Origin: Spiroplasma endosymbiont of Nebria brevicollis
GTDB taxonomy: Bacteria > Bacillota_I > Bacilli_A > Mycoplasmatales > VBWQ01
Length of the DNA: 64,000 bases
NCBI RefSeq assembly: GCF_964030895.1
Contig: NZ_OZ034986.1
Location: 806,001-870,000 of the forward strand
Reading direction: 5' to 3'
Shown: positions 4,366 through 56,656 of the stretch, one piece after another
How the letters are laid out: each line of letters opens with the position of its first letter
Numbering within the stretch: position 1 is the first letter of the stretch
Notes under the pieces: generated by a model
Database searches by the model: none
Seen by the model: only the letters and a program-made list of their open reading frames with translations
What the model was told of the DNA's origin: nothing
Program-made: the position numbers and the translations under genes

Positions 4366-4366
4366 A

Positions 4367-5839: not shown

Positions 5840-5843
5840 AATA

Positions 5844-6020
5844 TTACTCCTTATTTTTATAATATTCTTTAATTTCTTTTACTTTATTATTAAAATCTAA
5901 TTGATGTTTTTTACACATTTTAAAAAATTGAACAGAAGTATTTTCTAAATCTGTAGATTGTAATTTAATTAATACTTTACTATTACAATCTTTACAAATA
6001 CATTTTAATTTAGTTTTCAT
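5844..6020 (-). CDS. Small four-cysteine protein, left copy (58 aa)
   Basis: Counterpart of 50750-50926. Begins MKTKLKCICKDC. Cys-X-Cys-X2-Cys near the N-terminus and a later Cys before KKHQ could bind zinc. It sits between a 34-aa membrane peptide gene and the terminase gene. Proteins at this place in other phages are sometimes HNH nucleases or small terminases, but no HNH motif is visible here; the function is unknown. Confidence 0.7.
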   Translation of the reverse strand: MKTKLKCICKDCNSKVLIKLQSTDLENTSVQFFKMCKKHQLDFNNKVKEIKEYYKNKE

Positions 6021-6021
6021 T

Positions 6022-6126
6022 TTATTTTTTCCTTACTAAATCAAGTAATAAAACAATAAAACAACCTAAATTTATTAATGCTATTATTGTAGAATTTATA
6101 ATTATTAATATTTCTCATCAAACCAT
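6022..6126 (-). CDS. 34-aa single-span membrane peptide, left copy
   Basis: Counterpart of 50644-50748. Begins MVWWEILIIINSTIIA and is almost wholly hydrophobic, ending in a basic RKK. Its start overlaps the stop of the RuvC-like gene (TAATG). It could be a holin-like or membrane-stress peptide; nothing more can be said from sequence. Confidence 0.55.
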
Positions 6127-6635
6127 TATTTCACTTCCTTATTTAAATAATATCAACCAATTAATAAACTTTCTGCTTGGTCATGGTCTTTAATTTTAAT
6201 ATTTCAATTATGGTTCTTAATCATGAATTGAGAAAGTTCAATTGATAATTCTTTAGTTCAAGGTTTATAATTTCAATTATATTTAATTTCATCTAAACTT
6301 TGATATCATTTTCTTCATTCACTTGAACTTATTAACATATCTTTTGTTAATAATTTATTAAATTGACTTGATATAAAACCACGTAAATGGTCTAAAGTTT
6401 CTTTACCACGACCAAATTTTGGATTAAAAATACCACGTTCAATTACTAAATATAAATTATCTTTATTTATACATTCATCATAACTATTAATTTCATCAAT
6501 TATAAAAGTATTAAATTCAATTTCAGTATTTTTTTTAAAACTATAACTTTTTATTCATATTGGTTTTTTATTTTCTCATAATGTAAATCCAGTATTTTTA
6601 ATACTTGGGTCTACTGAAAGTAAATAATTATTCAT
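6126..6635 (-). CDS. RuvC-like Holliday junction resolvase, left copy (169 aa)
   Basis: Counterpart of 50135-50644. The RNase-H-fold acidic residues can be picked out: Asp in SVDPSIKNTG near residue 9, Glu in VIERGIF near residue 65, and Asp pair in DHDQAESLL near residue 150. It overlaps the recT gene by 8 nt. In phages of Gram-positive bacteria such proteins resolve branched DNA before packaging. Confidence 0.8.
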
Positions 6636-7425
6636 TACTAAATACCATATTATCTAAATTATCAATATTATTTTGTATTTGTTCATAATTAATATTTATT
6701 TCTTCTTTTGATTCTTCCATTACTTTTAATTTAATTTCTTTATTATCATTATTTGGATTATCAACATACATTATATTTTCATTATCTAATACTATTGCTT
6801 GGTCAATTTGCATTGCTCTATCAATAATATTTTGATTTTCTAATTTAATACTAGGGTCTTTATTAATATCTCTAATAATTGCTTTAATAACTGTTTTAAG
6901 TGCCATAGCATTAAAACTAGTAGTTCATGGACTATTACCATTTGCTTTACTATATTTTTTTCTATGTTCTTCACATTCTTGTTTAGTCATACCTTTAATA
7001 AAAGTAATTATTTTACCTAAATAATTTTTAATAGAAATCATACCATAATAACCAATAATTATTTTATTTTCAAATATTTTACTAGGGTCTAATTCTCAAC
7101 GTTTAGTTTCTTTATTAAAAATATGTTTATCAGTAATAATTTCTCTTTGAAAATCAATTACACAATTTGAACGTTGTAATAAAGTTAAAAAACCATCTTC
7201 TTGTATTTGTACTTGTAATTCATTATTATAAGGTATTAATGCTATTTCTTTTTTAATTGGATTATTACTTAAATCTAATTCAAATATAGTTGCTAAAGTA
7301 TTAATAACTGATTGTGGATTTAATGTTGATAATTTTTTATCATTTAATTTTGTTAATTCATAATAGTTAGTAAATTGTTGTATTTTTGATTTATCTATAT
7401 TTTTAGGTAAAGTTAAATTTGCCAT
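6628..7425 (-). CDS. RecT-family single-strand annealing protein, left copy (265 aa)
   Basis: Counterpart of 49345-50142. Differs from the right copy at a few residues (MANLTLP for MANLILP, ETKRW for ETQRW, LDNEN for LENEN). The start overlaps the stop of the exonuclease gene (TAATG). It anneals complementary single strands in phage recombination together with the exonuclease upstream. Confidence 0.85.
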
Positions 7426-8066
7426 TAGTGATTTTCCTTTCAAAGTGCAATTGCCATTTCTCATTCATATACTAATTCATCTGTTATTTCTACTAATATT
7501 TTTTCTACTTTATCTTTTTGAATTCAATAAATATAATGTATATTTGATAAATTAAAACCATTATTTTTTAATATTCAATAATAAGCAGTTAATTGTAATA
7601 TTGATTTTTCTTTATTTTCTTTATACATATTTGATAATGTTTTAAAATCAATTATTGTATATAAATTATTTTCTTTATAAATTAAATCTGGTGTTCCAGC
7701 AATAATATCATAAGTAAATACTTGTTCACATATATATTTAGTATTTACTTTAAATTCTTGTAAATTATTTAATAAATTTTCACAATATTGTAAATAATTT
7801 TTATTAAATAAATGTTGAATATTATTTAATAATTTATCTTTTATATTATTAATATTTATATTTTTAAAATATAATTCTGCTACTTTATGAACAGTTTCTC
7901 CTCTTAATCTAGCATTTTCTAATCTATCAAAAGGTATATTTTCATAAGGATTTTTATCTTCATATAAATAATATTGAATAATTTTTGAAACTGAGATTTT
8001 TTCTTGATTATTTAAAAAATATTGATGTGTATCTTTTTTAAAAATTAAATTATTTTTTAATTGCAT
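7425..8066 (-). CDS. PD-(D/E)XK exonuclease, left copy (213 aa)
   Basis: Counterpart of 48704-49345, with two substitutions noticed (NNQEK for NKQEK, YEDKN for YENKN). The nuclease core is GTPDLIY followed about a dozen residues later by IIDFKT. It is the probable partner of RecT. Its start lies 16 nt inside the ribbon-helix-helix gene. Confidence 0.85.
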
Positions 8067-8211
8067 TTTTAATTAAACTCCTTAGAAAAGCATTAATTGT
8101 AATATGATTTTCTAAGCAATATTTTTTAAATTCATAATATTCATCTATAGTTAATCTAACAATCATTTGTTTATTTAATAAATCTTCTTTATTTTTCTTA
8201 TGTGCTGACAT
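8050..8211 (-). CDS. Ribbon-helix-helix DNA-binding protein, left copy (53 aa)
   Basis: Counterpart of 48559-48720. The segment MIVRLTIDEYYEFKKYC followed by a helix and INAFLRSLIKNAI matches the beta-strand, helix, helix pattern of small repressors. It starts at the stop codon of the 62-aa gene and overlaps the exonuclease gene. It may autoregulate the recombination operon. Confidence 0.6.
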   Translation of the reverse strand: MSAHKKNKEDLLNKQMIVRLTIDEYYEFKKYCLENHITINAFLRSLIKNAIKK

Positions 8212-8399
8212 TAAAATTCAACTCCTTTAATATCTAATTCCATTACTAATATTTCATAATGTTCAATATAAGCATTTTCTAATATATGATGTTTATAATT
8301 TTTATGAAAATTAATAGCATTTTCAATTGTAGAAAATATTTTTTGTTTTCTTTTATTAGTATAATTTACTTTATATTTTAATAAATAATTATATTGCAT
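8211..8399 (-). CDS. 62-aa phage protein, left copy
   Basis: Identical to the protein at 48371-48559. Begins MQYNYLLKYKVNYTNKRKQK; mixed basic and aromatic, no membrane span. Function not recognised. Good ribosome-binding site (AAAGGAG) upstream and tight spacing support it being a real gene. Confidence 0.7.
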   Translation of the reverse strand: MQYNYLLKYKVNYTNKRKQKIFSTIENAINFHKNYKHHILENAYIEHYEILVMELDIKGVEF

Positions 8400-8413
8400 A
8401 TTATTTTTCTCCT

Positions 8414-8620
8414 TTAACCTTTAATAATTTTTTTATAATGAATAATTACTTGTTCTAATTTATTTATTTTTTCATATGAAAAATAATCTTTCATAATTTT
8501 TAAATCACCATCATTATCAATTTCAAATTCTAATTCTTCATATTTACTATTAAATTCTTCTTGTAATTCTTCAAATTTATCTATTAATTTTCTTGCATTT
8601 TGTAATTCTAATTGATTCAT
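8414..8620 (-). CDS. 68-aa acidic coiled-coil-like phage protein, left copy
   Basis: Identical to the protein at 48150-48356. It is highly charged and helical (for example KFEELQEEFNSKYEEL), fitting a short coiled coil. AAAGGAGAAA ribosome-binding site upstream. Function unknown. Confidence 0.7.
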   Translation of the reverse strand: MNQLELQNARKLIDKFEELQEEFNSKYEELEFEIDNDGDLKIMKDYFSYEKINKLEQVIIHYKKIIKG

Positions 8621-8633
8621 TATCTTTTCTCCT

Positions 8634-8807
8634 TTAAAAATTTTCTAATTGTAATTCATTAATATAATAGTTATATAAACTATCATAGTTATCACTTGTT
8701 AAATATATATCTTCTTCAATCATATTATTAATACATTTATTACAATAATAAGAATTATCTATTTCACTAATTCAAATATATTTTTTATTATGTAATTTAC
8801 ATTTCAT
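8634..8807 (-). CDS. 57-aa zinc-ribbon-like phage protein, left copy
   Basis: Counterpart of 47963-48136. Begins MKCKLHNKKYIW; Cys and His near the start plus CNKC form a possible zinc site. Start overlaps the preceding Cys-rich gene by 11 nt. Function unknown. Confidence 0.65.
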
Positions 8808-8952
8808 TATTTTTACCTATTAATTTATAAAAACAGTTATTACATGTTCTATTATTTATAGATGATTGTTTATGACAAATATCACAACTATGAGTAATAA
8901 TATTATTTAAATAAGTTTTTTTATATTCAATATTTTCTTTTCATAAATACAT
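8797..8952 (-). CDS. 51-aa Cys-rich phage protein, left copy (longer N-terminus)
   Basis: Shares its last 35 or so residues (CDICHKQSS ... CNNCFYKL) with the 39-aa protein at 47854-47973, but starts with MYLWKENIEYKKTYLN instead of MLNWN. The extra 36 nt explain the change in coordinate offset between prophage copies. CxxC...CxxC suggests a zinc knuckle. Confidence 0.65.
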
Positions 8953-8969
8953 ATATATTAATTCCTTTC

Positions 8970-9458
8970 TTAATATTTTAAATAAAATATTTTATTATTA
9001 TGAGTTACTAAATCTTTTAATGATGTTACTATATAATTTATTACTAAATCATTATGATTATATGGATTATTTATTTTAAAACTTTTTCTATCTTTTTCTC
9101 AGGTAATATTATATTTAAAACATTCTTCATTTTTTATTTGTCCAATATAATAACCATTATATTTTTTATAAAATTCAAAAGTAATTAATTTTTCAATAAT
9201 TTTATTATTTATTATTGGTTTTTCTTTTAAATCTTCAATTTGAATATATTGTTTTAATAATTCTTTTAATTGCACACCATTTAATTCTTTTTTTATATTA
9301 TCTTTAAAAACTCAATATATTCGTGTTTCATCAATATTAAAAGAATTTTTTTTAATAAAACATTTAGAAATTGATATTTTATATTCTCCAAATTCAATTA
9401 TTATTGCACCATTATCAGTTTCTTTAATAATTTGCTCTTGTGAAAATTCTATTATCAT
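8970..9458 (-). CDS. First gene of the prophage-1 early operon, left copy (162 aa)
   Basis: Counterpart of 47348-47836. Begins MIIEFSQEQIIKETDNGA. Central segment KKELNGVQLKELLKQYI is also present in the decayed prophage 2 (36103-36252). Not recognised as a known family. It starts the early gene run, about 23 nt after the hairpin at 9481-9511, so it may be a regulatory or early-takeover protein. Confidence 0.7.
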
Positions 9459-9480
9459 TTTAAAAACCTTTCTTTTTATT

Positions 9481-9511
9481 CAGCACTGCTACTTTTAGTA
9501 AGCAGTTGCTG
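9481..9511 (+). terminator. Hairpin followed by T-run, facing away from the early operon (left copy)
   Basis: CAGCACTGCTACTTTTAGTAAGCAGTTGCTG folds into a long stem with an AAA/TTT loop and is followed on the plus strand by a T-rich run, so it reads as a terminator for plus-strand transcription. The same element is at 47295-47325 and, with base-pair-preserving changes, at 35955-35985. Confidence 0.65.
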
Positions 9512-9547
9512 TTTTTTTATTTTCTTTTTTAAAAAAATCTTATAAAT

Positions 9548-9578
9548 AGGCTCTTTATCACCTACAGTGATAAAGCCT
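9548..9578. promoter_or_regulatory. Second leader hairpin (left copy)
   Basis: AGGCTCTTTATCAC and GTGATAAAGCCT form a stem with a two-base bulge around a CTACA loop. It lies upstream of the early operon in both prophage copies (right: 47228-47258). Could be an attenuator or operator; no direct evidence for either. Confidence 0.45.
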
Positions 9579-9951
9579 AAAAAAAAATAAATATATATAT
9601 ACTAATTATTTAATTTATGTTAATATATAATTGATAAGGTATGTATTTATATATAACCCCCTTTATGTGTAATAATTTAAAAATAATTAAAGAACAGGGT
9701 TTATGGTTATTACATAATCTTGAAAAATTCTTTACTAACTCAATATAGAGACTTCAATTAATAGACAAATACATACAATAACAATTCAATAAAAATTAAT
9801 AAATTACTCTTTTATACTCATGTAGTAGTATTTACATAAAGTACTCACAATTTAACTAACTACGAGAGTTTATTTAATTTAACAATTAAAAATGAGAGTA
9901 TTATCTCTCATTTATATTTTTATTAAATCTATACCTATTTTTTATACGGCC
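9579..9951. other. Non-coding leader of prophage 1, left copy
   Basis: No gene is visible in this stretch. It is the mirror image of 46854-47227 and carries TATATATATA, a run of C with palindromic flanks, a TACTCATGTA/TACATAAAGTA imperfect palindrome near 9815-9845, and the GAGAG...CTCTC hairpin near 9890-9913. It ends at the sequence CGGCC, the prophage border. Confidence 0.6.
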
Positions 9952-10560
9952 TTTACGCAAACTAATTACTTAGTTATTATTTATTTGTTTTTCTGTTTGA
10001 AAATAGATTTAAACCTCATTCTAAACCACGTTTTTATACTTTATTAAGTATTACCGTTTATATTGCTATTACTATGTTAGTGTTCTGGGGAGGGATTGCT
10101 ACTAAATCACAAGAACGTAGTAAATTTGGAACTGGTATTTATCCTTGATTTAAAACTGTAATTTTACATTTCTTTATGCCTGTAATTATGATTATCAATT
10201 TTGTCTTTGCTTGTGGTGAAGAATTTTATAGTTTAAAAGAACATCATAGATTATACTTATGATTTATTTGTTTTTATCCTTTTTTTTATTTAATTGTTGT
10301 GGTGGTACGTGGGGTATTACGTACTCAACAAGGAGAATTAGATGCTACAAGATATCCTTATTTTTTCTTAGACTACCAAACTAATGGTGTTGGGCTTTTA
10401 GTGTTTGCTATTGTTGGGATTTTTCTAATTACTATTATTTTACAATATTTTTATTTATGAATTAATAATATTAGATATAAAAAAATATCCAGTCGATGAT
10501 TCAACCATTAAAGAATTTTATGTTCCTAAAGTAAACTACCCTTATGGTACTAAATTATAA
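9952..10560 (+). pseudogene. Pr6Pr-type membrane protein, N-terminus cut off by prophage 1
   Basis: Starting directly at the prophage border, the DNA encodes FTQTNYLVIIYLFF, then after a shift in a T-run LFENRFKPHSKPRFY, several membrane spans, and the YPYFFLDYQTNGVG motif. Multi-span proteins of this type (Pr6Pr family) have a Y-F-T-x-x-S/T-N motif in the first loop and YPY(P/F)FLD before the last span; both are present in order. A second frameshift lies in the A-run near 10478-10490, after which the tail reads YPVDDSTIKEFYVPKVNYPYG. The start codon and first span are missing and should lie beyond the other end of the prophage. The gene is therefore broken by insertion, by frameshifts, or both. 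Confidence 0.7.
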
Positions 10561-21460: not shown

Positions 21461-21482
21461 AATATTAAAAATATTTAATATT
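21461..21482. terminator. Hairpin between convergent smc and mgtA
   Basis: AATATTAAA and TTTAATATT pair perfectly over nine bases around an AATA loop. It sits 4 nt beyond the mgtA stop codon. AT-only stem, so the call is tentative. A second small hairpin with a T8 run follows the smc stop at about 21382-21407. Confidence 0.4.
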
Positions 21483-21486
21483 ATAA

Positions 21487-24216
21487 TCAGCGTTTATTAA
21501 CTTTAATATAAAACATTTTCAACAATTGACTTGCAAAGAAGTATACTACTACTACCCCTGCTAAATAAGCATAAAATATTGGTGGAATTGTTGTTAAACC
21601 AATAGTAGTTCCCAATGCTGTATAAGGAATTAAAATCCCAATTCCGGTAATTAAAACGGTAGTACTGAATAACTGCCACGATGGACGACTTTGTAAAAAG
21701 GGGATTTTTGAAGTTCGTAACAACTGGACAATTAAGGTTTGACTAGTAATTCCTAATATAAATCATCCTGTTTGAAATAATGATATTCAGTATAAAGCAT
21801 CTGTTCTTGATGAATTACTATAGTTACTAAAAATATGTAAACCATATCCTAAAAATAAGAAGGTGGTTATATCGAAGAGCGAACTTAAAGGTCCATTTCA
21901 AAAGGCAAATGGTAAAATACTCTTAGTATCTCACTTTTGTGGTTTAGCCACAAAGTCATTATCAACACGATCTCAAGGAATAGCTAATTGAGAAATATCA
22001 TATAACAAGTTTTGCAATAACAATTGAATAGCCATCATTGGTAAAAATGGTAACCAAATTGAAGCAATTAAAATACTTAGTGAATTACCAAAATTAGAAG
22101 AAATAGTAATTTTAATATATTTCAAAATATTACCAAAGGTAATACGACCACTAATAACACCTTGTTCTAGAACTTCTAAATCTTTTTCTAATAAAATAAT
22201 ATCAGAAGCTTCTTTTGCAATATCAGTGGCACTATTGACTGAAATCCCCACATCAGCATGATGTAAAGCAACAGCATCATTAATCCCGTCACCTAAGAAT
22301 CCAACAGTATGGCCATTTAGTTTTAAAATATCAATAATGCGTGCTTTTTGTAATGGATCCATTTTAGCAAAAATAGTTGTCTTATCAACAATAGTACGTA
22401 AAAGTTGGTCATCCATATTTTCAATATCAGAACCCAATAATGGAACACCAGGAGTTAATCCTACTTTTCTACAAATGGCTTTAGTAACAATTTCATTATC
22501 GCCAGTTAAGATTTTAACTGCTACACCATGTTGATTCAATGAGTTAATAGCTTTAATAGCGCTTGGTTTGGGTACATCTAAAAAACCAACATATCCTGAT
22601 AAAATTAAGTTTTCTTCATCACTAATTTTAAAAATTTTTTTATCACTCGTAAATGGTTTATAGGCAATAGCAATTACACGTAAACCATCATTATTAAGGT
22701 CAACACTTAATTTTAAAACATTATCTTTAATTTTATCAGTTAATGTAATAACTTTGCCACCAATATCAACTTGTGTACAAATTTTTAATAGTTCTTCAAC
22801 AGCACCCTTACAAATTAAAGTGTTAGTTACTTTATCTTTTGATACAACAACTGACATTCTACGTCGTGCAAAATCAAAAGGAATTTCGTCAATTTTACGA
22901 TATGGCATAATATCAGTAACGCTATTATGATGAGCTTTAATATGTTCAACAATTGTCTTATCAATATTATTTTTTAATCCTGTTTGAAAAGAACTGTTTA
23001 AATAAGCCATTGCTAACACTTTCTCTGATTCAACGCCATCAGGATTTAAATGTTTAACTAATTCAATACGGTCTTCAGTTAATGTCCCAGTTTTATCGGT
23101 ACATAAAATATTCATGGCACCGAAATTTTGAATACTAGTTAAATTTTTAACAATAACTTTTTTACGTGATAGTTTGACAGCACCTCGTGCTAGATTGGCA
23201 CTAATAATCATTGGTAACATTTCTGGGGTAATACCTACAGCAACCGAGATTGAAAAAATTAACGCAGTTAAGATATTTCCTTTAGTAAAAACATTAACAA
23301 TAAAAATTAATGGTACCATTACACACATAAAACCAACTAAAATATAACTTACTTTTTTGATACCTTTATTAAAACTAGTAGTAGGACGTTTTCCTGTGAC
23401 AGCACTAGCAATCGAACCAAAGTATGTATTAGCACCTGTCGCCATAACAATGGCAATAGCACCACCAGAAACAACACTAGTGCCCATAAAACATAAGTTC
23501 TGCAGTTCCAAGATACTACTTTTCTTAGCATCGTTAGTAGGGTCAATAGCATGCTTTTCTACTGGTAAGGTTTCACCTGTTAAAGCTGCTTGGTTAATAA
23601 ATAAATCAGCTGATGCTAAAATTCGAACATCAGCAGGAATCATGTCACCTGAAGATAAGAAAATAATATCACCAGGCACTAAGTTTTCGATTAGTATTTC
23701 TTGGGTAAAATTTGAAACGCTATTTAAATCATTAAAATTAATATTTTTATTTTGGTCCTGAAATCGAAAGACACTGGCGGTTGTTTCAATTAACTGTCGT
23801 AATTTTTCTGATGATTTATAGGAACGATAATCTTGAAAATAAGAAATAAAGACACTCATTACAATCATTACTAATACAATAATAGCACTATATAAATCAA
23901 CTTTACGATCATTACTATTATCAAGGACACTATAACTAATAAAATTATAAATAACAATTAACGTTAATATAATAATAAATGGATTAATAATATTATGAAC
24001 TAATTTTTTGTACCAGACAAAACGTTTATGAGAAAAAATGTTTTTTCCATTTTCTTTGATTCTATCTTCAACATCATCAAATTTTAAACCTTTCATCCTA
24101 CCATTTAATTTTGTGATGGCTTCTTCTTTTGACATTTGGGAGAATTGTTTAAACATAGTAGTTGTTTTTTGTTCTTTATGTTTCGTCTTTCAAAAGTGCA
24201 TGACAGAAAACCCCAT
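21487..24216 (-). CDS. mgtA: Magnesium-importing P-type ATPase (about 909 aa)
   Basis: Integral membrane pump of the P3B class that brings in Mg2+ at the cost of ATP. Visible parts: actuator loop ALTGETLPVEK, phosphorylation site CTDKTGTLTEDR near residue 374, nucleotide-domain FDFARRRMSVVV, LTGDNE, and hinge GDGINDAVALHHAD near 640. Near the C-terminus WDRVDNDFVAKPQKW resembles the conserved NxxDNDFLxxPxxW of MgtA/MgtB. About ten spans are expected and seen. I took the first ATG (24214-24216, MGFSVMHFWKTKHK); an ATG 15 nt later is equally possible because neither has a strong ribosome-binding site. It is controlled by the M-box riboswitch and terminator directly upstream. Confidence 0.95.
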
Positions 24217-24282: not shown

Positions 24283-24310
24283 GTGACAATTGCAAAAATA
24301 GCAGACATTA

Positions 24311-24473
24311 ATATTCCCTCGTTACAGAATGAGCACGATATAGCTTAGGTATCCTACCAGCTACGTTAGCAAAAGCCTTAATCCGACTGTTGCTGTGTTG
24401 ACCCATAAAATGTCTTTGGACATAGGATGGGCAGTAGCGTATTTCTATAAAGGAGCCTTTCTGAACAGAATAT
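24311..24473 (-). ncRNA. M-box (ykoK) magnesium riboswitch
   Basis: Read on the minus strand this leader holds the conserved M-box blocks in order: AGGCTCCTTTATAG, AATACGCTACTGCCCA, TGTCCAAAGACA, ATGGGTCAACA, then TAGCTGGTAGGATACCTAAG and a closing GAATAT. The 5' AUAUUCU pairs with the 3' GGAAUAU to close the outer helix. M-box RNAs sense Mg2+ directly and shut off magnesium transporter genes when it is plentiful. A terminator and mgtA follow. Confidence 0.94.
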
Positions 24474-24500
24474 AATTATTAGTTTTTAAAATACAAGTTA

Positions 24501-34950: not shown

Positions 34951-35620
34951 CTAAAATCTTAAATTTATTTGTTGGCATTTAAAGATAATCATTTGCTTAT
35001 ATGTTTCAATACTATAAGTGCGATTACCAAGCATTGACTTTAAAATATGTCAAACATTACTTTCAGCATAACAACCAATATTTTCTTTACAAGATTGATT
35101 AGTAATGCCTTCTTTATTATTAAGAAAGTATTTTTTCTTTAGTTTTTTATGTTTTAAAGTTTTAAGATAATCAAGTAATTTATCATATTCACCATTTTCA
35201 ATAAAATTTCTACAAGTATTATATTCTTGATAATACTTGCCTTTATTACCAGCAATAATGCCAAGATATAATACTTTAATTGAATGAAATTTATCTAAAA
35301 TAAATTTGGCATTAAGATATTCAGCAGTTTTTTTAATTCAACCAGCACTATCACCACAAATAATTACTTGTGCTTGGTCAAAATTTTCAAAAAAAATGTT
35401 TTCCTTGTTCTAAAATAAAGTCAGCAGTTTTTCTAACACCAAGCACAGTTTTATTTAGTCTAATGATAACCTTTGCTCTTTTATTAACTAATGTATATGA
35501 TTAATATTATCTGTATAAAATACTACTAATCGCATTGAATATTGATTAATTTTACGCTTGTATTCTCAAAATTTTGGGATCGTGGCAAAGATGTCGATAA
35601 CTCATCATTTTTATAAATAG
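34951..35620 (-). pseudogene. ISLre2/UPF0236-type transposase remnant
   Basis: Minus-strand segments NKRAKVIIRLNKTVLGVRKT, then ICGDSAGWIKKTAEY, KFILDKFHSIKVLYLG and QSCKENIGCYAESNVWH fit the central and C-terminal parts of UPF0236 (ISLre2) transposases, which have a G-D-G/S-A-x-W-I motif. A one-base shift lies in a T8 run at about 35384-35393 and stops interrupt the part nearer 35.5 kb. The N-terminal half is missing. No clear terminal inverted repeats were found. Confidence 0.72.
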
Positions 35621-36102
35621 ATTCCTTGCTAACCCTCATTACAATCTATATCAAAATTCACAAAAAGACGAGAAATAAGTATCGTCTTTTTTTGTAATTG
35701 TAAAATTTGCAAATTTTATAACCGTCTTTATCACTATTATCAACACGTGTTAGGGACATAAAACAGTGAACCATAACACAGTTGTTCAAAATAGTGGCTA
35801 GCATGTGGACTTGCATGTTGAAATAAAAAGTGGAGTGATACCTAACAAAATATACTAACCATTAATAATGGTAATCCTTGGGGTGGGAGCGGATTGGCAA
35901 CTAGTATATATAGACCCGTTTTGGGAGACATACTGTAATTAGTTTTTTATTTAACAGCACTGCCACTTTCAGTGAGCAGTTGCTGTTTTATTTTTTTCAT
36001 TTTTTTGGGCGAGTAACATAAATTTTAAAACTTGTAAAAAAAAATTAAACGGGGCTAGTTCAATATAAATATAACTTGCTAAATGCAAGTTATTAAAAAC
36101 CA
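35621..36102. other. Intergenic border of prophage 2
   Basis: No gene of convincing length. It holds a hairpin at 35662-35691 (AAAAAGACGA/TCGTCTTTTT, terminator-like), the palindrome AACACGTGTT near 35741, a 30-codon plus-strand frame with GNPWGGSGLATSIYRPVLGD ending near 35936, and the phage-type hairpin at 35955-35985. Where chromosome ends and prophage 2 begins cannot be fixed, but the hairpin and the following gene remnant are phage-derived. Confidence 0.5.
35955..35985 (+). terminator. Phage hairpin with T-run (prophage 2 version)
   Basis: CAGCACTGCCACTTTCAGTGAGCAGTTGCTG then TTTTATTTTTTT. It matches the prophage-1 leader hairpin (9481-9511, 47295-47325), but with one base pair of the stem changed from T-A to C-G and a loop change. 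Its T-run faces the phage gene remnant downstream. Confidence 0.65.
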
Positions 36103-36252
36103 AAATGCTTTATTAAAAATAATACCTTTAATATTTATGATAATAATAATTATTGAATTTATAATTTAGAAAATATTAAAAAAGAATTAACTGGTGTGCA
36201 ATTAAAAGAATTATTAAAACCATATATTAGATGATTATATGACATTTACTAA
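36103..36252 (+). pseudogene. Remnant of the phage early gene (cf. 47348)
   Basis: Reads KCFIKNNTFNIYDNNNYWIY then KKELTGVQLKELLKPYI and stops at 36250-36252. This matches residues of about 33 to 75 of the 162-aa protein at 47348-47836. The beginning and end are missing, so it marks a deletion joining an early-region piece to structural genes. Confidence 0.75.
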
Positions 36253-46694: not shown

Positions 46695-46904
46695 ATGTTA
46701 TCATTACCATTTCAAAATCATTTTGATTGAGACAAACATCATTTTAATCAAGATGAATTAAATTTAAAACAAACAGAGAAATTATTTAAAAAAATAGATG
46801 AACAATTATGAAATGAATGTGATAAATCTATATATAAACCATATAGATTTAGAGGCCGTATAAAAAATAGGTATAGATTTAATAAAAATATAAATGAGAG
46901 ATAA
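46695..46904 (+). CDS. 69-aa protein crossing the prophage-1 border
   Basis: MLSLPFQNHFDWDKHHFNQD to NERY-type basic end (RGRIKNRYRFNKNINER). AAAGGAAC lies upstream. The last 17 codons fall inside the prophage-1 repeat (from 46854), the rest outside it. At the left copy the equivalent upstream part is absent. It may be a fusion made when prophage 1 landed in prophage 2, or a true prophage-1 gene that lost its start on the left. A terminator overlaps its end. Confidence 0.5.
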
Positions 46905-46920
46905 TACTCTCATTTTTAAT
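46892..46920 (+). terminator. Hairpin terminator at the prophage border
   Basis: AAATGAGAG, loop ATAATA, CTCTCATTT, then TT. It ends the 69-aa gene and isolates the prophage leader from outside transcription. Also in the left copy (about 9890-9913). Confidence 0.7.
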
Positions 46921-47227
46921 TGTTAAATTAAATAAACTCTCGTAGTTAGTTAAATTGTGAGTACTTTATGTAAATACTACTACATGAGTATAAAAGAGTA
47001 ATTTATTAATTTTTATTGAATTGTTATTGTATGTATTTGTCTATTAATTGAAGTCTCTATATTGAGTTAGTAAAGAATTTTTCAAGATTATGTAATAACC
47101 ATAAACCCTGTTCTTTAATTATTTTTAAATTATTACACATAAAGGGGGTTATATATTACATACATACCTTATCAATTATATATTAACATAAATTAAATAA
47201 TTAGTATATATATATTTATTTTTTTTT
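46921..47227. promoter_or_regulatory. Non-coding leader of prophage 1, right copy
   Basis: No gene. It contains the imperfect palindrome TACTTTATGTA-8 nt-TACATGAGTA (46962-46990), TGTAATAA (47091) facing TTATTACA (47130), and a TATATATATA run near 47205. Such features fit operators or an origin; which one cannot be told. Conserved in the left copy. Confidence 0.45.
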
Positions 47228-47258
47228 AGGCTTTATCACTGTAGGTGATAAAGAGCCT
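47228..47258. promoter_or_regulatory. Leader hairpin A (right copy)
   Basis: AGGCTTTATCAC and GTGATAAAGAGCCT pair with a two-base bulge around TGTAG; a T7 run follows 11 nt later. Possible attenuator of the early operon. Confidence 0.45.
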
Positions 47259-47294
47259 ATTTATAAGATTTTTTTAAAAAAGAAAATAAAAAAA

Positions 47295-47325
47295 CAGCAA
47301 CTGCTTACTAAAAGTAGCAGTGCTG
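47295..47325 (-). terminator. Leader hairpin B (right copy)
   Basis: CAGCAACTGCTTACTAAAAGTAGCAGTGCTG. On the minus strand it is followed by a T-rich run, so it should stop transcription coming from the early genes' direction outward. 22 nt before the first early gene. Confidence 0.65.
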
Positions 47326-47347
47326 AATAAAAAGAAAGGTTTTTAAA

Positions 47348-47836
47348 ATGATAATAGAATTTTCACAAGAGCAAATTATTAAAGAAACTGATAATGGTGC
47401 AATAATAATTGAATTTGGAGAATATAAAATATCAATTTCTAAATGTTTTATTAAAAAAAATTCTTTTAATATTGATGAAACACGAATATATTGAGTTTTT
47501 AAAGATAATATAAAAAAAGAATTAAATGGTGTGCAATTAAAAGAATTATTAAAACAATATATTCAAATTGAAGATTTGAAAGAAAAACCAATAATATATA
47601 ATAAAATTATTGAAAAATTAATTACTCTTGAATTTTATAAAAAATATAATGGTTATTATATTGGACAAATAAAAAATGAAGAATGTTTTAAATATAATAT
47701 TACCTGAGAAAAAGATAGAAAAAGTTTTAAAATAAATAATCCATATAATCATAATGATTTAGTAATAAATTATATAGTAACATCATTAAAAGATTTAGTA
47801 ACTCATAATAATAAAATATTTTATTTAAAATATTAA
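47348..47836 (+). CDS. First early-operon protein of prophage 1 (162 aa)
   Basis: Begins MIIEFSQEQIIKETDNGA with AGAAAGG upstream. Mixed alpha/beta composition, no membrane span, no cysteine cluster beyond two single Cys. The central KKELNGVQLKELLKQYI is conserved in prophage 2, which shows that both phage types carried it. Not recognised. First in a run of small genes leading to the recombination cassette, so an early function is likely. Confidence 0.7.
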
Positions 47837-47853
47837 GAAAGGAATTAATATAA

Positions 47854-47973
47854 ATGCTTAATTGAAATATTATTACTCATAACTGTGATATTTGTCATAA
47901 ACAATCATCTATAAATAATAGAACATGTAATAACTGTTTTTATAAATTAATAGGTAAAAATAATGAAATGTAA
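47854..47973 (+). CDS. 39-aa Cys-rich protein (right copy, short N-terminus)
   Basis: MLNWNIITHNCDICHKQSS to CNNCFYKLIGKNNEM: two CxxC pairs suited to one zinc ion. GAAAGGA upstream. The N-terminus differs from the 51-aa left version. Function unknown. Confidence 0.65.
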
Positions 47974-48136
47974 ATTACATAATAAAAAATATATTTGAAT
48001 TAGTGAAATAGATAATTCTTATTATTGTAATAAATGTATTAATAATATGATTGAAGAAGATATATATTTAACAAGTGATAACTATGATAGTTTATATAAC
48101 TATTATATTAATGAATTACAATTAGAAAATTTTTAA
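47963..48136 (+). CDS. 57-aa zinc-ribbon-like protein
   Basis: MKCKLHNKKYIWISEIDNS then YYCNKCINNM: a CxxH plus CxxC arrangement, followed by an acidic and Tyr-rich end. Overlaps the preceding gene by 11 nt, suggesting translational coupling. Function unknown. Confidence 0.65.
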
Positions 48137-48149
48137 AGGAGAAAAGATA

Positions 48150-48356
48150 ATGAATCAATTAGAATTACAAAATGCAAGAAAATTAATAGATAAATTTGAA
48201 GAATTACAAGAAGAATTTAATAGTAAATATGAAGAATTAGAATTTGAAATTGATAATGATGGTGATTTAAAAATTATGAAAGATTATTTTTCATATGAAA
48301 AAATAAATAAATTAGAACAAGTAATTATTCATTATAAAAAAATTATTAAAGGTTAA
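48150..48356 (+). CDS. 68-aa acidic coiled-coil-like protein
   Basis: MNQLELQNARKLIDKFEELQ and on: a Glu/Lys-rich helix with hydrophobic residues at heptad spacing. AAAGGAG 8 nt before the ATG. Identical in the left copy, which hints that it is maintained. Function unknown. Confidence 0.7.
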   Translation: MNQLELQNARKLIDKFEELQEEFNSKYEELEFEIDNDGDLKIMKDYFSYEKINKLEQVIIHYKKIIKG

Positions 48357-48370
48357 AGGAGAAAAATAAT

Positions 48371-48559
48371 ATGCAATATAATTATTTATTAAAATATAAA
48401 GTAAATTATACTAATAAAAGAAAACAAAAAATATTTTCTACAATTGAAAATGCTATTAATTTTCATAAAAATTATAAACATCATATATTAGAAAATGCTT
48501 ATATTGAACATTATGAAATATTAGTAATGGAATTAGATATTAAAGGAGTTGAATTTTAA
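48371..48559 (+). CDS. 62-aa phage protein
   Basis: MQYNYLLKYKVNYTNKRKQK to VMELDIKGVEF. Small, basic first half, acidic end. AAAGGAG upstream; identical in both copies; stop overlaps the next start (TAATG). Function unknown. Confidence 0.7.
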   Translation: MQYNYLLKYKVNYTNKRKQKIFSTIENAINFHKNYKHHILENAYIEHYEILVMELDIKGVEF

Positions 48560-48720
48560 TGTCAGCACATAAGAAAAATAAAGAAGATTTATTAAATAAA
48601 CAAATGATTGTTAGATTAACTATAGATGAATATTATGAATTTAAAAAATATTGCTTAGAAAATCATATTACAATTAATGCTTTTTTAAGGAGTTTAATTA
48701 AAAATGCAATTAAAAAATAA
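48559..48720 (+). CDS. Ribbon-helix-helix DNA-binding protein (53 aa)
   Basis: After a basic head (MSAHKKNKEDLLNKQ), QMIVRLTIDEYYEFKKYCLE supplies the strand and first helix and ITINAFLRSLIKNAIKK the turn and second helix of the RHH fold. Such dimers bind operator repeats. AAAGGAG precedes it within the previous gene. Likely represses its own early operon; the target could be the palindromes in the leader. Overlaps the exonuclease gene by 17 nt. Confidence 0.6.
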   Translation: MSAHKKNKEDLLNKQMIVRLTIDEYYEFKKYCLENHITINAFLRSLIKNAIKK

Positions 48721-49345
48721 TTTAATTTTTAAAAAAGATACACATCAATATTTTTTAAATAAACAAGAAAAAATATCAGTATCTAAAATTATTCAATATT
48801 ATTTATATGAAAATAAAAATCCTTATGAAAATATACCTTTTGATAGATTAGAAAATGCTAGATTAAGAGGAGAAACTGTTCATAAAGTAGCAGAATTATA
48901 TTTTAAAAATATAAATATTAATAATATAAAAGATAAATTATTAAATAATATTCAACATTTATTTAATAAAAATTATTTACAATATTGTGAAAATTTATTA
49001 AATAATTTACAAGAATTTAAAGTAAATACTAAATATATATGTGAACAAGTATTTACTTATGATATTATTGCAGGAACACCAGATTTAATTTATAAAGAAA
49101 ATAATTTATATACAATAATTGATTTTAAAACATTATCAAATATGTATAAAGAAAATAAAGAAAAATCAATATTACAATTAACTGCTTATTATTGAATATT
49201 AAAAAATAATGGTTTTAATTTATCAAATACACATTATATTTATTGAATTCAAAAAGATAATGTAGAAAAAATATTAGTAGAAATAACAGATGAATTAGTA
49301 TATGAATGAGAAATGGCAATTGCACTTTGAAAGGAAAATCACTAA
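48704..49345 (+). CDS. PD-(D/E)XK exonuclease of the phage recombination pair (213 aa)
   Basis: Predicted to resect DNA ends to single strands for RecT. Starts MQLKNNLIFKKDTHQYFLN; ENARLRGETVHKVAELYF contains the helix with the first conserved Glu/His of Cas4/RecB-type nucleases, and GTPDLIY plus IIDFKT around residues 125-142 form the PD-x-n-(D/E)xK core, with LQLTAYYWIL (the QLxxYxW-like helix of RecB nucleases) after it. Overlaps recT by one base (TAATG). Two or more UGA tryptophans are in the C-terminal third. Confidence 0.86.
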
Positions 49346-50142
49346 TGGCAAATTTAATATTACCTAAAAATATAGATAAATCAAAAATACAACAATTTAC
49401 TAACTATTATGAATTAACAAAATTAAATGATAAAAAATTATCAACATTAAATCCACAATCAGTTATTAATACTTTAGCAACTATATTTGAATTAGATTTA
49501 AGTAATAATCCAATTAAAAAAGAAATAGCATTAATACCTTATAATAATGAATTACAAGTACAAATACAAGAAGATGGTTTTTTAACTTTATTACAACGTT
49601 CAAATTGTGTAATTGATTTTCAAAGAGAAATTATTACTGATAAACATATTTTTAATAAAGAAACTCAACGTTGAGAATTAGACCCTAATAAAATATTTGA
49701 AAATAAAATAATTATTGGTTATTATGGTATGATTTCTATTAAAAATTATTTAGGTAAAATAATTACTTTTATTAAAGGTATGACTAAACAAGAATGTGAA
49801 GAACATAGAAAAAAATATAGTAAAGCAAATGGTAATAGTCCATGAACTACTAGTTTTAATGCTATGGCACTTAAAACAGTTATTAAAGCAATTATTAGAG
49901 ATATTAATAAAGACCCTAGTATTAAATTAGAAAATCAAAATATTATTGATAGAGCAATGCAAATTGATCAAGCAATAGTATTAGAAAATGAAAATATAAT
50001 GTATGTTGATAATCCAAATAATGATAATAAAGAAATTAAATTAAAAGTAATGGAAGAATCAAAAGAAGAAATAAATATTAATTATGAACAAATACAAAAT
50101 AATATTGATAATTTAGATAATATGGTATTTAGTAATGAATAA
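49345..50142 (+). CDS. RecT-family single-strand annealing protein (265 aa)
   Basis: Binds single-stranded DNA and anneals homologous strands, giving the phage its own recombination. Typical RecT features: SVINTLATIFELDLS near the N-terminus, EIALIPYNNELQVQIQEDGF (the LiPy...v..q.gy-type core), IGYYGMISIKNYLG, and the SPWTTSFNAMALKTVIK segment before the acidic C-terminus (Glu/Asn-rich, as in the group). The W in RWELDP is UGA. Its presence with nearly identical prophages 37 kb apart may itself promote exchange. Confidence 0.88.
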
Positions 50143-50644
50143 TTATTTACTTTCAGTAGACCCAAGTATTAAAAATACTGGATTTACATTATGAGAAAAT
50201 AAAAAACCAATATGAATAAAAAGTTATAGTTTTAAAAAAAATACTGAAATTGAATTTAATACTTTTATAATTGATGAAATTAATAGTTATGATGAATGTA
50301 TAAATAAAGATAATTTATATTTAGTAATTGAACGTGGTATTTTTAATCCAAAATTTGGTCGTGGTAAAGAAACTTTAGACCATTTACGTGGTTTTATATC
50401 AAGTCAATTTAATAAATTATTAACAAAAGATATGTTAATAAGTTCAAGTGAATGAAGAAAATGATATCAAAGTTTAGATGAAATTAAATATAATTGAAAT
50501 TATAAACCTTGAACTAAAGAGTTATCAATTGAACTTTCTCAATTCATGATTAAGAACCATAATTGAAATATTAAAATTAAAGACCATGACCAAGCAGAAA
50601 GTTTATTAATTGGTTGATATTATTTAAATAAGGAAGTGAAATAA
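50135..50644 (+). CDS. RuvC-like Holliday junction resolvase (169 aa)
   Basis: MNNYLLSVDPSIKNTGFTLW opens with the first catalytic Asp (residue 9). LVIERGIFNPKFGRG gives the Glu near 65 and the closing KDHDQAESLLIGWYYL the last Asp residues near 150. This matches RuvC-type nucleases that cut branched DNA, found in phages next to RecT or the terminase. Overlaps recT by 8 nt. Tryptophans are almost all UGA. Confidence 0.82.
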
Positions 50645-50748
50645 TGGTTTGATGAGAAATATTAATAATTATAAATTCTACAATAATAGCATTAATAAAT
50701 TTAGGTTGTTTTATTGTTTTATTACTTGATTTAGTAAGGAAAAAATAA
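50644..50748 (+). CDS. 34-aa single-span membrane peptide
   Basis: MVWWEILIIINSTIIALINL then a further hydrophobic run and a DLVRKK tail. Start codon overlaps the resolvase stop. Possibly holin-like. Conserved in both copies. Confidence 0.55.
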
Positions 50749-50749
50749 A

Positions 50750-50926
50750 ATGAAAACTAAATTAAAATGTATTTGTAAAGATTGTAATAGTAAAGTATTA
50801 ATTAAATTACAATCTACAGATTTAGAAAATACTTCTGTTCAATTTTTTAAAATGTGTAAAAAACATCAATTAGATTTTAATAATAAAGTAAAAGAAATTA
50901 AAGAATATTATAAAAATAAGGAGTAA
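50750..50926 (+). CDS. Small four-cysteine protein (58 aa)
   Basis: MKTKLKCICKDCNSKVLIKL with C-x-C-x2-C, and FFKMCKKHQLDF later. Could be a zinc-binding DNA-packaging helper. AAGGA upstream. Ends 4 nt before the terminase start; function not recognised. Confidence 0.68.
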   Translation: MKTKLKCICKDCNSKVLIKLQSTDLENTSVQFFKMCKKHQLDFNNKVKEIKEYYKNKE

Positions 50927-50930
50927 TATT

Positions 50931-52403
50931 ATGAATAAAGAATTTACATACTTAAATGAAATTAGTTATTGATTATTAAATAAAAGTGATTTTACTCATA
51001 GTGAATATAATCTTAGTGGTAGTAGATATTCTAGTAAAACATATAGTATAGCAGAAGAATTAGCAATATTAATAGTTATATCAATTAAAGTACAAAAATC
51101 AATTGCTATTTATGCATTTAGAAAATTAAATAAAGATATTAATGATTTAGTAAAAGAAATATATAATGCTTTAATAATAATTGGATTGAATGATTATAAA
51201 GACTTTACTTTAAAATACCCTAATAAGCAAGCAGACTTTCGTTTTAAAGGTTTTAAATCATTTATTAGGGTAATGGGTGTATATAGTAATTCAAATGATA
51301 GAATACCTTTAAAAGGTCTTTCTCGTAGTGAAATAAAAGGTTTTGATTTAGCAATTGAATGATGTGAAGAAGCAAATGAATTTAGTCAACAAGAATTTCA
51401 AGCAATAACATTTGCATTAGGTAATGCTAAAAAAAGAATAAAAATAAAAAGTTGTAATCCAGATAATATTTATCAATATTATATTGAATATATGAATAAA
51501 ATTGTACCTTTTAATTTAGAAATAATGAAAGAAAAAAATGAACAAATTAAATCAATATTTGATAATAATATTTTTAAGTTATTTCATTATAGTAATTGAA
51601 AAGTAAATGCTCATAATCTTACATTAGATATGATTAATGATTTAGAAGAATTAAAAGTATTAGATCCAATTAAAGCACAAAGTTGATATTATGGTGTACC
51701 AAGTATTTTACAAGGTGCTATTTTTGCTAGATATTTAGATAAAGTTAATACTAAATTAGATTTTCAAGTACAAAGATTAACTGGTGGTTTAGATATAGGT
51801 ATGGCAACAAGTCCAAGTGGTCATCCTACATCTGCTTCATTATGATTTATTGGTGAAAATGATAATGGTAGAAGAGCGCATAAAGAAAGTGAATTTTATC
51901 ATAGTAATGTTACTATGCAATATAAAGATACTGATACTTTAGCAAATGATATTATTAATTATTATATAAATGAAAGTAAACGTTATATAGCAATGTTATT
52001 TGGTTTTACTTGTTATGTTGATTATGGTAATGGTGGGTTAGTATTTATTGATGTTTTAAAAAGTTGAGTTAAAAAACGTAATATAACATGATTAAAATTT
52101 ATAGCAGTAGATAAATCAATTTTATATTTAAATGATAGAATTGATTTTACAACAATTTGTATGCTTAAAAATATTATTAGTTTTAATTGAGAAAGATGTC
52201 CAGAAACTAAAAGACAATATAGTTTAATGCAATGATTAGATAAAAAGAAATTAGATACTAATAATAATACTCCGAAAATGTTAGATTTACATGATGATAC
52301 TTGAGATAGTGATATGTATGCATTAATGCATGAAATGAAATGATTAATTAATGGTATTAATAATAAATTATTAATTAATAAAAATAATTTTGGTGGTGAT
52401 TAA
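50931..52403 (+). CDS. Phage terminase large subunit (490 aa)
   Basis: Motor and nuclease that cuts concatemeric DNA and drives it into the capsid. ATPase half: GSRYSSKTYSIAEEL (residues 30-44) is the Walker-A-like P-loop; FDLAIEWCEEANEF near 145 is Walker B with the catalytic Glu; KKRIKIKSCNP near 175 is the coupling motif. Nuclease half: GGLDIGMATSPSGHP near 285, CYVDYGNGG near 360 and LHDDTWDSDMYALM near 460 hold the metal-binding acids. Length is in the usual range. The preferred start has AAGGAG upstream. The protein differs strongly from the terminase of prophage 2. Confidence 0.9.
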
Positions 52404-52404
52404 T

Positions 52405-53760
52405 ATGATAAATACAATGGAATATTTAAGTTGTGATAAAAAAGATTGATATATTGATATACCAATGATTATTGCTCAAAAATCAACTAAATTATGATTA
52501 GGTAAAGGTTTTTTATTTAATTCAAGTAAAAAAGAAATATTAGATTATCTTAATGAAATGAATTTAAAAGATAAATGATTAGAAAAATTTTATAAATTTG
52601 GTTTACAAAATTCACTAATGGGTAAAGTATTTATTATGATTATAATTAATGAAGATAATAGTAAATCCCTTAAAATATTACCTAATAGTTTTTGTGGTAG
52701 AGTTGCTAAATATAATGAACAAGAACAATCAGCAGAATTTTATTTTATTAATGAACAAGCAGATAGTGCTACTTTAACTTGAGTAACAATACAAAATGGA
52801 AAAGTTAAATATGAAACATATAAAGATAATAATAAAGATATTATTTTAGGTTCTACAAGAACTAAATTAAAACCAAATATAACACCATTAAATACTTATG
52901 AAATTAAAAATCCATTTAATTATATTCCTATTTTTGAAATAACTAATTTACCAATTATTAATTTATATGGTAATACAACTACTTTAAATGCATATCCAGA
53001 TTGTACAGCAGTATGAGATTTAATATGAGATTTAAATCAAGTTATTAAGAAAAAAAGATTAGAAAGAGAATTTAATGTTACTACTTTATTTGCTGTATTA
53101 GATAATGAAACAGTTAAAGAAATGCAAGAAAATGGTAATATTATTGAAAATCCTAAAAAAGATATGATAGTTAATGTTGGTAGTGCTGGATATGATAAAA
53201 ATGGGAATGGTAGTATGCAAATTATACAAGGTGACCCAAAATTTAGTGAATATTGATTAGATTATAATGGTACTGCTAAAGCAATATTTAATGGTTCTGG
53301 TTATGATTATGATGAACATGGTAATGATGTTTATACTAATAAAACACAAAGTATGTTTAATAATAAATTTGATATGGAAACAACAGAAATTAAAATAGCA
53401 TTTTATAGTGCTTATTTTTATCGTATATTTGATTTACTTCTTATTAGTGAAAATTTATGAAATGGTATTGGTGAAAGACCTTATTCATTTAAATTTATCC
53501 CTATAGCAATGACTGACCAAATAGTACAAGACCAAATTATTAATTCAAGATTAAATAATGGTACTATGACAGTAAGTGAAGCAATTGGTGAATATGATAA
53601 TATTGACCAACTTATGGCAGAAAATAAATTAGAAAATATTATTATAGAAAATAAAAAATTAAATAAAGAATTAGGAGATAATGAAAATGAGCAATCATCA
53701 AAGAATTCAATTAATGAAACACGCACATTTACATCTAAAGAGACAACAAGCAATAATTAA
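52405..53760 (+). CDS. Phage portal protein (451 aa)
   Basis: MINTMEYLSCDKKDWYIDIP starts one base after the terminase stop. MIIAQKSTKLWLGKGFLF near the N-terminus, a beta-rich middle (KILPNSFCGRVAKYNEQ, NPFNYIPIFEITNLP), and a long helix around DCTAVWDLIWDLNQVIKKK fit the portal clip-stem-wing order of SPP1-like portals. The C-terminal 60 residues are charged and probably disordered. The next gene starts within its last 25 codons. Identification rests on position and general architecture. Confidence 0.72.
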
Positions 53761-56656
53761 ACGTTTAAGTCATTGAAAAATATTTCCATTTATAATTAAT
53801 AATGGAGCAATACCTTTAACTGAAACTGGTTATAAACCTATTAATAGTAAAATTAGTGATTTTGGTCAATATGAATTAATACTTTCTGGTAATACTCCAG
53901 TTGTATGTATTTGAAAAAATAGTACTAAAATCTATCAAAAAAATAAAGGTATAACAGACCCAACTACTCATAAAACTACTGGACAAGACCAATATTATAC
54001 TAAACAATATAAAATTGGTGATTATTGAAATGCTTATTTAATTGATGATACAAGTGGTGTAGATTTTGGTGGTTTACCTAATAATCAATTATTTAAAACA
54101 ATTTCTACAACAAGACAATATATATTAGTTATGTTTGAAGAACAAATTACAGTAGATGATTATTTACAATTTTTTTGTGTATTTAATGATAAAAATGAAA
54201 ATATTGGTGGTAATACTGGTAAAAATCAAGATAGACAATTATTATATATTTCAAATGTAACTAATTATTATAGTCCTTATAATGGTGAATTTAGTATGCA
54301 AGTATTAACTTTTAGTTCAGTTAATGATAGAGCAGTAGCAAGTGGTCAAAATACGCTTGATTATGTACAATATGCAAGTCCAGGTAGTGGTTATGCTTTC
54401 CCTACTATTCAAAATAGTTTAGTAACGTTAAATCGTACTTTAATGCGTGATATTGGAGTAAGATATAGTCATAGACAATCTTATGGTTTAGAATTATTAT
54501 CTAGTTGTTATTATTATGGTAGACCTATAATACAAGGTCAAGCACCTAATCAAATTAATAATAATGAAATATTTGAACAAAAAGTATTTGCTTCAAGAAG
54601 ATTATTTATTGCAGGTAATAATGACCATTCAAGTACTACTGTTAAAAATAATGGTGGTTTATTAGCAGGTATTAATGATAAAATAACTACTAATAGTCAT
54701 CCAGAAACTACATTTTATAATTTAATGGATGCAAAACCTACTGGATATCTTAATTTTAAAAATTGAAAAGAATGATTATCAACTAGTTTAAATTTACAAG
54801 CAAATTTATTTGTTACAAAAGATTTTAAAGGTATGTTAGCATTTGATAAAACAAAAGCAACTAATAGTAATGGTACAGCAATTGGAGAAGCTAAATTCTT
54901 TTGAGATAGTGAATGAAATATTAATAATATCTCTGGTAATTATAATGTAGATATGTCTAGTAATTTTAAATATAAAGACCCAGATACTAATTTAATTATT
55001 GGTTCACCAACTGTAGATTATTCAAAAATAAGTCAAAAATATATGAGTGCTATATTAAATTTTAATTCAGTAGTATTTAGTAGTTTAATTCAAATGCCTT
55101 ATGATAGTGTACAATGATTACCATTTGCTTTAAGTGATATACCATTAATTGGTAAATTATTAAATGTTTTAAGTTTAGGTATTCCAATTGGTTTTATTAT
55201 TAATCAAAATAATCAACAATATAAAAAAATGTTATATTTTAATGGTTTTATGTCAGCATTTTTTACAAATAATTTAGAAAATATTATTGGTAATGGTGGT
55301 TTAATTCCATTAAATGCATTTACTAATGATAATGCTTTTGCTATTGGTAAATTATTAGGTGCTAATGTTTCTACAACTGCTATGACTATGAAACTTACAG
55401 ATAGAATATCAGTATATCCATGAGACCCTAAAACTGGTCATAAATTAACCACTAAAGAACAAATTAGTACAGTTGATTTATCACAAAAGAAAAATAATAA
55501 AGTTTATATTTTAGCAGAAGATACTGAATTTTTAGATATAGCAAGTCCATTAACTAATTTAGATAAAGATTGTCAATGAAATCCAACAAGTAATGGTGTT
55601 AGTGATGGTTCTAATTATGCTTATATTATTGATACAATTGTAACTCAATCATTACATCAAGGAGAAGAAAGACATACATTTTATAGTGATAATCCATTTA
55701 CTTATCAAGGAGATTATAATGAACTTTCAGTTGCTCAATTTAGATATAAAAATAAAGGTGCTTTAACTAATAATGCTTTTAATTGAACTACTTTATATAA
55801 ATTAAATCATGATGAATATGAAGAAAGTGAAGAAATAACTTTTAGTTATCCAGCAAACATATTACCACCAAGTCCACAAAACATAGCAAAACAAATAATT
55901 ATAATACCAAGTAATCCAAGTATAACAGAAACAGTGAATTTATATCCAACTTTATTATATAAAGACAAAAACCATTTAGAATATGATAAAAATACATGAA
56001 TTAATAATAATAAAAATTTAAAAAATTTAGAAATAGATATTAATTTTAAAGACTATTTAGACCCTACATTATTAATTAATACTTTTAATGACTTAAAAAG
56101 ATATTATAAAAGTGTAGATATTTATTTATCATGAAACTATGAAACAGTTGAAAGTAAACAAGGTAATAAAAATAATATTTTAACTTCAGAAAAATTTATA
56201 CCTACAAAATCACAAAGTTATTTTTTTAGTCAAAATTTATCTGAACTAAATACTTATAATGAAACTAAAACATCAAATAATTATGATAATTATGAAATTA
56301 TAGAATACCCAAGTGGTGAAAGTTATGTGTTTGATAATTATGGAGTTTCAGTAATAACAAAAGAACCCAATAATATTGATTGACTATATACAATTTCTAA
56401 ATGTTCGCTTAAATCAGAAGCTAAACTCCTTAAACAATTAATAATGGAAAAAGATAGTTATACTTATTTAGGTTTTTGTGATATTAGTGATAAAGAATTT
56501 AAATTTAAAATACAAATGTTTCCCATAATAACACAAGTACAAGTTATATATCAAGATTGTAATACATTAAATCCTAGTTCTAATAATTCTCAAATCATAA
56601 GATATATAAATAAATATTATTTAAGTATTGATAAAATAATATTTAATTCACGATAA
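53687..56656 (+). CDS. Large tail protein, knob-like (989 aa)
   Basis: One open frame from ATG 53687 (MSNHQRIQLMKHAHLHLKRQ), with GGAG 10 nt upstream inside the portal gene, to TAA at 56656; it contains many UGA tryptophans. The first 450 residues are beta-rich with repeated Tyr/Asn. Residues of about 460-505 (SSLIQMPYDSVQWLPFALSD then IPLIGKLLNVLSLGIPIGFI) are strongly hydrophobic, then a polar domain and, after about residue 735, a C-terminal part that differs from the left copy. In small podoviruses such as phi29 the tail-knob protein carries a hydrophobic loop that enters the host membrane, and this layout resembles it. No sheath or tape-measure gene is near. Family not confirmed. Confidence 0.7.

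Follow-up and report, generated by a model that had tools for sequence, protein, structure and literature searches.

A covarying hairpin as the probable intrinsic terminator of a putative noncoding leader RNA conserved in Spiroplasma prophages

What keeps a short phage hairpin folded while its base pairs change, and why does it point with the early gene in one prophage and against it in another? The question is raised by positions 35955-35985 of the window, a stretch of 64,000 nt (positions 806001-870000 of a 1.49-Mb Spiroplasma-like genome, translated with code 4). According to the original prediction, a 31-nt hairpin from the leaders of another prophage recurs at this place with one stem pair changed from T-A to C-G on both arms, with its fold and bulges intact and with its T-run differently oriented relative to the early gene, suggesting selection for an RNA structure that is more than a simple terminator; covariation in further copies was named as a check.

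The hairpin occupies exactly three sites in the window, 9481-9511 (+), 35955-35985 (+) and 47295-47325 (-), where no copy is expected by chance (0 in 100 shuffles), so the recurrence is real. Genome-wide there are 14 copies, eight of type A, which carry the T-A form at stem pair 10-20, and six of type B, including the one at 35955, which carry the C-G form. The two forms differ at three positions, namely 10 (T/C), 20 (A/G) and 16 (T/C). Positions 10 and 20 pair with each other, so that the T-A to C-G change is compensated just as had been described, while T16C is a loop change absent from the earlier account. One type-A copy also has T-A replaced by C-G at pair 7-24, and T26A in the bulge occurs in three of the six type-B hairpins of this genome. 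The two forms retain the same pair of bulges, A21 and one T at 26/27, and the folding of all copies is far above that of shuffled sequences (z -4.3 to -6.4), with the copy at 35955 forming 13-14 pairs at -19 kcal/mol (z -6.4), which agrees with the predicted conservation of fold and bulges.

Taken by itself, the two-form pattern is weak, as 4.8% of simulations with three random changes restricted to transitions match it; when any substitution is permitted, 0.8% give a compensated pair and no broken pair. About 70 type-B orthologues were therefore gathered from four sister Spiroplasma genomes of the ixodetis clade and aligned, leaving aside an inverted hairpin form of S. ixodetis. S. ixodetis SHM and the Spiroplasma from Danaus chrysippus are among the sister genomes in which related loci occur. 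Over 23 distinct hairpin forms, 96.9% of the stem cells are paired. Double changes are found at seven of the 14 stem pairs, against an average of 2.4 pairs in shuffles, and 18 cells are doubly changed versus 2.8 in shuffles; none of 500 shuffles reached the observed values, in a control that takes the copies as unrelated. Despite this disregard of relatedness, the covariation is supported by the sliding of the pairing register, which leaves just 0-1 pairs with double changes, by wobble intermediates at two pairs (G-U in locus L060, U-G in L100) and by pair 27-46, which is doubly changed in two lineages (L014, L114). The pairing of the hairpin is clearly conserved in evolution, and the check by covariation comes out in favor of selection for an RNA structure.

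Selection is not the only process that can produce paired changes, given that template switching at palindromes creates compensatory changes and loop inversions (PMC8794818), and in-place inversions recur among these leaders. At two S. ixodetis loci the terminal hairpin is inverted between unchanged flanks, its reverse complement having 2 mismatches in 34 positions to the common form versus 14-16 for the forward sequence. Inversions were also observed in the loop of the type-A distal hairpin (L001 vs L004), in type-C hairpins (L129 vs L132) and in the hairpin proximal to the Shine-Dalgarno sequence (SD; L125 vs L115), and some stems are lengthened symmetrically (L134, L129, L133). In these inversions, paired changes and symmetric extensions the hairpins resemble the template-switch cases, and because inversion in place is repeated, a flipped orientation is by itself no sign of a special function. 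As the T-run of type A is flipped too, either a longer piece moved or the T-run arose separately. Template switching contributes to the paired changes and the orientation differences. It is nevertheless unlikely that quasi-palindrome correction and hairpin inversion during replication would be their main source, with little selection on RNA: correction should erase the bulges, yet both persist in nearly all of the 23 forms, the G-U intermediates at two pairs are what stepwise substitution predicts, and several double changes hit a single pair and leave the neighbouring stem unchanged. The published case concerns rRNA, whereas the present one concerns multicopy phage leader hairpins, where the bulges and G-U intermediates also indicate selection.

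Conservation of symmetry could also serve a protein, if a dimeric phage repressor bound the palindromes as double-stranded DNA operators and symmetric changes preserved the protein site rather than an RNA. Leader palindromes of several phage types do share an operator-like core (TTATCACTGTAGGTGATAA, GCTACTTACAGTAGC), and a dyad site is left nearly unchanged by loop inversions. We regard this reading as highly improbable, considering that the bulges of the 31-nt hairpin lie on one arm only and break the dyad spacing, yet are kept, that the stem sequence differs widely between the type B of this genome and type B elsewhere with the pairing kept, and that the T-rich tract is always 3' of the hairpin.

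The surroundings of the 35955 hairpin form an ordered left end of a type-B prophage. The left terminal repeat GGGATCGTGGCAAAGATGTCG lies at 35576-35596 (+); its motif marks the left boundary of many copies in the sister genomes, and the host sequence upstream of it is different for each type-B copy. Left ends are found at many host sites, and at the few head-to-tail junctions the right prophage end is an imperfect inverse of the left one (...GACAACATCGGTACGCTCCC); no transposase was identified among the proteins scanned. An upstream terminator-like hairpin, GACGAGAAATAAGTATCGTC followed by T7, is located at 35667-35693 (+) and is kept in most copies as GACAAGA...TCTTGTC-T7 or GACGAG...CTTGTC-T7. 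After it, about 150 nt inside the prophage left end, begins a noncoding block of about 270 nt, with a conserved core at 35722-35945 (+), which is closed at its 3' side, just before the early operon, by the C-G hairpin (35955-35985, +) and a U-tract (TTTTATTTTTTTCATTTTTTT, 35986-36006, +). The tract starts directly 3' of the stem on the same strand (TTTTATTTTTTT), and all type-B copies have a T-rich tract immediately 3' of the hairpin. The prophage copy at 35955 is decayed, and its relative of the early gene at 36034-36231 (+; G000:C1:842034-842231) covers residues 11-73 with two internal TAA codons (E=1.2e-10). Most type-B copies examined likewise lie at the left end of a prophage, with an early-gene relative downstream. 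Many type-B copies (e.g. L149, 7150-7310) also contain an optional segment of ~150 nt between terminator and early gene. Its ends are complementary (GGGCGAGAAAATAAATTTC ... TTTATTTTTGAGCCC), so that it is either MITE-like or a long hairpin, and other copies lack it cleanly.

Of 298 genomes of the order, five, all from one Spiroplasma genus, contained the leader element, at ~77 loci in total; outside those five there was one marginal match of 52 nt. Between species the block is 88-90% identical, versus 78-80% for the adjacent early gene, and it holds no conserved ORF or small protein across the copies. RNAalifold predicted nine core helices, in which 99.4% of cells pair, and kept the terminator as a separate domain. 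Double changes outside the terminal hairpin are few because the leader sequence barely varies, and the core fold is a prediction; the full leader folds slightly better than shuffles (z -1.9). In the type-B hairpin proximal to the SD, double changes were seen at three pairs in a small hand-picked set.

The 35955 hairpin is ordinary in kind. Like intrinsic (Rho-independent) terminators, it has a stable GC-containing stem within the usual range of ~7-20 pairs, a short loop and an immediate U-tract 3' on the strand that would be transcribed, and it ends a conserved block that looks transcribed. Terminator stems covary too, so the covariation at 35955 needs nothing beyond a terminator, whose stem would change pair by pair because the fold must be kept. 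Unlike typical intrinsic terminators, it keeps two bulges on the 3' arm, and the hairpin inverts in place and appears flipped in another phage leader; the terminator scanner, which permits no bulges, did not list it. The suggestion that the structure is more than a simple terminator finds no support at 35955, where hairpin, immediate U-tract and the end of the conserved noncoding block coincide, but the doubt was justified for the prophage-1 copies described below.

Whether termination here would be conditional is a separate matter. The leader might control read-through into the early operon in cis, as an attenuator or riboswitch-like element, a reading that we consider possible but short of probable. 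Leader, terminator and early gene follow one another on one strand in those type-B copies that keep the early gene, one intact early gene begins just 45 nt past the hairpin (G000:C1:488276-488854), and the leader is strongly conserved, as are cis-acting leaders that bind ligands or proteins. Yet no alternative, antiterminating helix that engages the hairpin's 5' arm was identified, the predicted separate terminator domain speaks against it, no riboswitch family matched, and the spacer ahead of the early gene could house a promoter of its own. A promoter scan between the upstream terminator and the block gave no convincing site and none above shuffle level.

In type-A prophages, called prophage 1 in the window, the same hairpin stands in another arrangement. 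Copy 1 carries the T-A form at 9481-9511 (+) with a T-run at 9512-9530 on the plus strand, its early operon runs on the minus strand from a first gene of 162 aa (8970-9458, -, code 4), and a distal leader hairpin AGGCTCTTTATCACCTACAGTGATAAAGCCT, whose loop is inverted in other copies, lies at 9548-9578. In copy 2 the distal hairpin is at 47228-47258 and the T-A hairpin at 47295-47325 (-) comes just before the SD AAAGAAAGG and the ATG at 47348 of the 162-aa first gene (47348-47836, +). The early operon of type A encodes the 162-aa protein, followed by exonuclease, RecT, RuvC-like resolvase and terminase genes; an AlphaFold model of the 162-aa protein had a mean pLDDT of 58, too poor for a fold search. 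The left 444 nt of the insertion, from the sharp left boundary GGCCGTATAAAAAATAGG to the hairpin (46851-47294, +, in copy 2), are identical or near-identical in most type-A copies, while the host flanks are all different. Two further observations concern these elements. The nearly identical type-A prophages at 132-9955 and 46851-56656 lie in inverted orientation ~37 kb apart and form a substrate for recombinational inversion of the intervening segment. Within the type-A leader, 98 nt (CATAAACCCTGTTC..., window 47100-47197) have counterparts of 84-85% identity in three plasmids (L026, L027, L028, ~4001-4098) from the Drosophila atripex Spiroplasma, where they precede small hypothetical genes.

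Relative to the early gene, the type-A hairpin is flipped and sits 8-10 nt before the SD. A long T-run is kept in each of the eight copies, only on the strand that lies opposite the gene. This bears out the predicted difference in orientation from 35955, where the T-run shares the strand of the early-gene remnant. A-like leaders of the sister genomes lack the 31-nt hairpin and have another hairpin in its place. Across types A, B and C, a stable hairpin directly precedes the first SD in nearly all leaders of first genes and persists even where the first gene differs. Since every phage type has such a hairpin, a 5'-UTR role (e.g. in mRNA stability or translation control) is plausible for the prophage-1 copies. 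The flipped hairpin might instead terminate leftward, antisense transcription, and the T-run on that strand in eight of eight copies would fit; we find this rather doubtful, as the 444 nt from the hairpin leftward to the left end contain no phage gene, and the corresponding hairpins of other types have no T-run of this kind. Apart from this, the 400 nt directly preceding the early gene in type-C leaders (L129-L148) contain two tandem palindromes with shared operator-like cores (GCTACTTACAGTAGC, TTATCACTTACAGTGATAA), with symmetric changes of stem length and flipped loops.

Database searches assigned the leader to no listed family. Rfam returned nothing at the gathering score and chance hits only at E<=10, blastn against phage and plasmid collections gave no match to the element, and a scan of IMG/VR by hairpin, element motif and early protein gave nothing. 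Publications on Spiroplasma ixodetis prophages, to the extent that they were searched, give prophage counts only. The block contains an apparent T-box-like motif, GGGUGG, which was discarded for want of Rfam support. A bridge RNA of the IS110 kind, considered for a GGGAGCG common to the RNA and the phage end, was likewise abandoned, as the ends look like inverted repeats and the proteins scanned included no IS110 recombinase. Elsewhere in the window, an M-box (Mg2+) riboswitch is located at 24308-24476 (-), upstream of a 911-aa ORF (21481-24216, -).

Taking position, covariation, flips and conservation together, we think it likely that 35955-35985 is the intrinsic terminator of the ~270-nt conserved noncoding leader RNA and that the type-A hairpin is a flipped re-use of it. 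In a family of putatively transposable Spiroplasma prophages, the leader would follow the left end and precede the first early gene, insulated from host transcription by the upstream terminator. RNA polymerase would start past that terminator and transcribe the structured leader, and the 35955 hairpin with its U-tract would halt it ahead of the early operon. Either the leader RNA would act alone, or read-through of the terminator would set early-operon expression. Type-A prophages of this genome would have acquired the same hairpin, flipped, into their early-gene leader, where it may serve as a 5'-UTR hairpin just before the SD, like the other hairpins of other phage types. More tentatively, and with some doubt on our part, the leader could represent a new regulatory RNA family, specific to transposable Spiroplasma phages, that gates RNA polymerase into the early operon by conditional termination at the 35955-type hairpin, its cassettes being swapped and flipped between phage families.

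Phage leader RNAs of the HK022 put type act by antitermination and others by attenuation. The Spiroplasma leader resembles them in its order of a structured noncoding leader, a terminator and then an early phage operon, and differs in having no sequence or Rfam match. GOLLD and ROOL are large phage-associated noncoding RNAs that are conserved and of unclear function (PMC12286853). The Spiroplasma leader is also noncoding, phage-associated and conserved; it differs in its length, below the several hundred nucleotides of that class, and in its restriction to one Spiroplasma clade, and the Rfam models of GOLLD and ROOL did not match it.

The conserved putative leader RNA is a more interesting object than the hairpin that ends it. 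The hairpin led to a predicted RNA element that is not listed in Rfam, is more conserved than the neighbouring gene, and stands at the entry to the early region of the prophages that fill these symbiotic bacteria. Its set of copies shows selection on the fold and inversion by template switching side by side, which is rarely possible outside rRNA.
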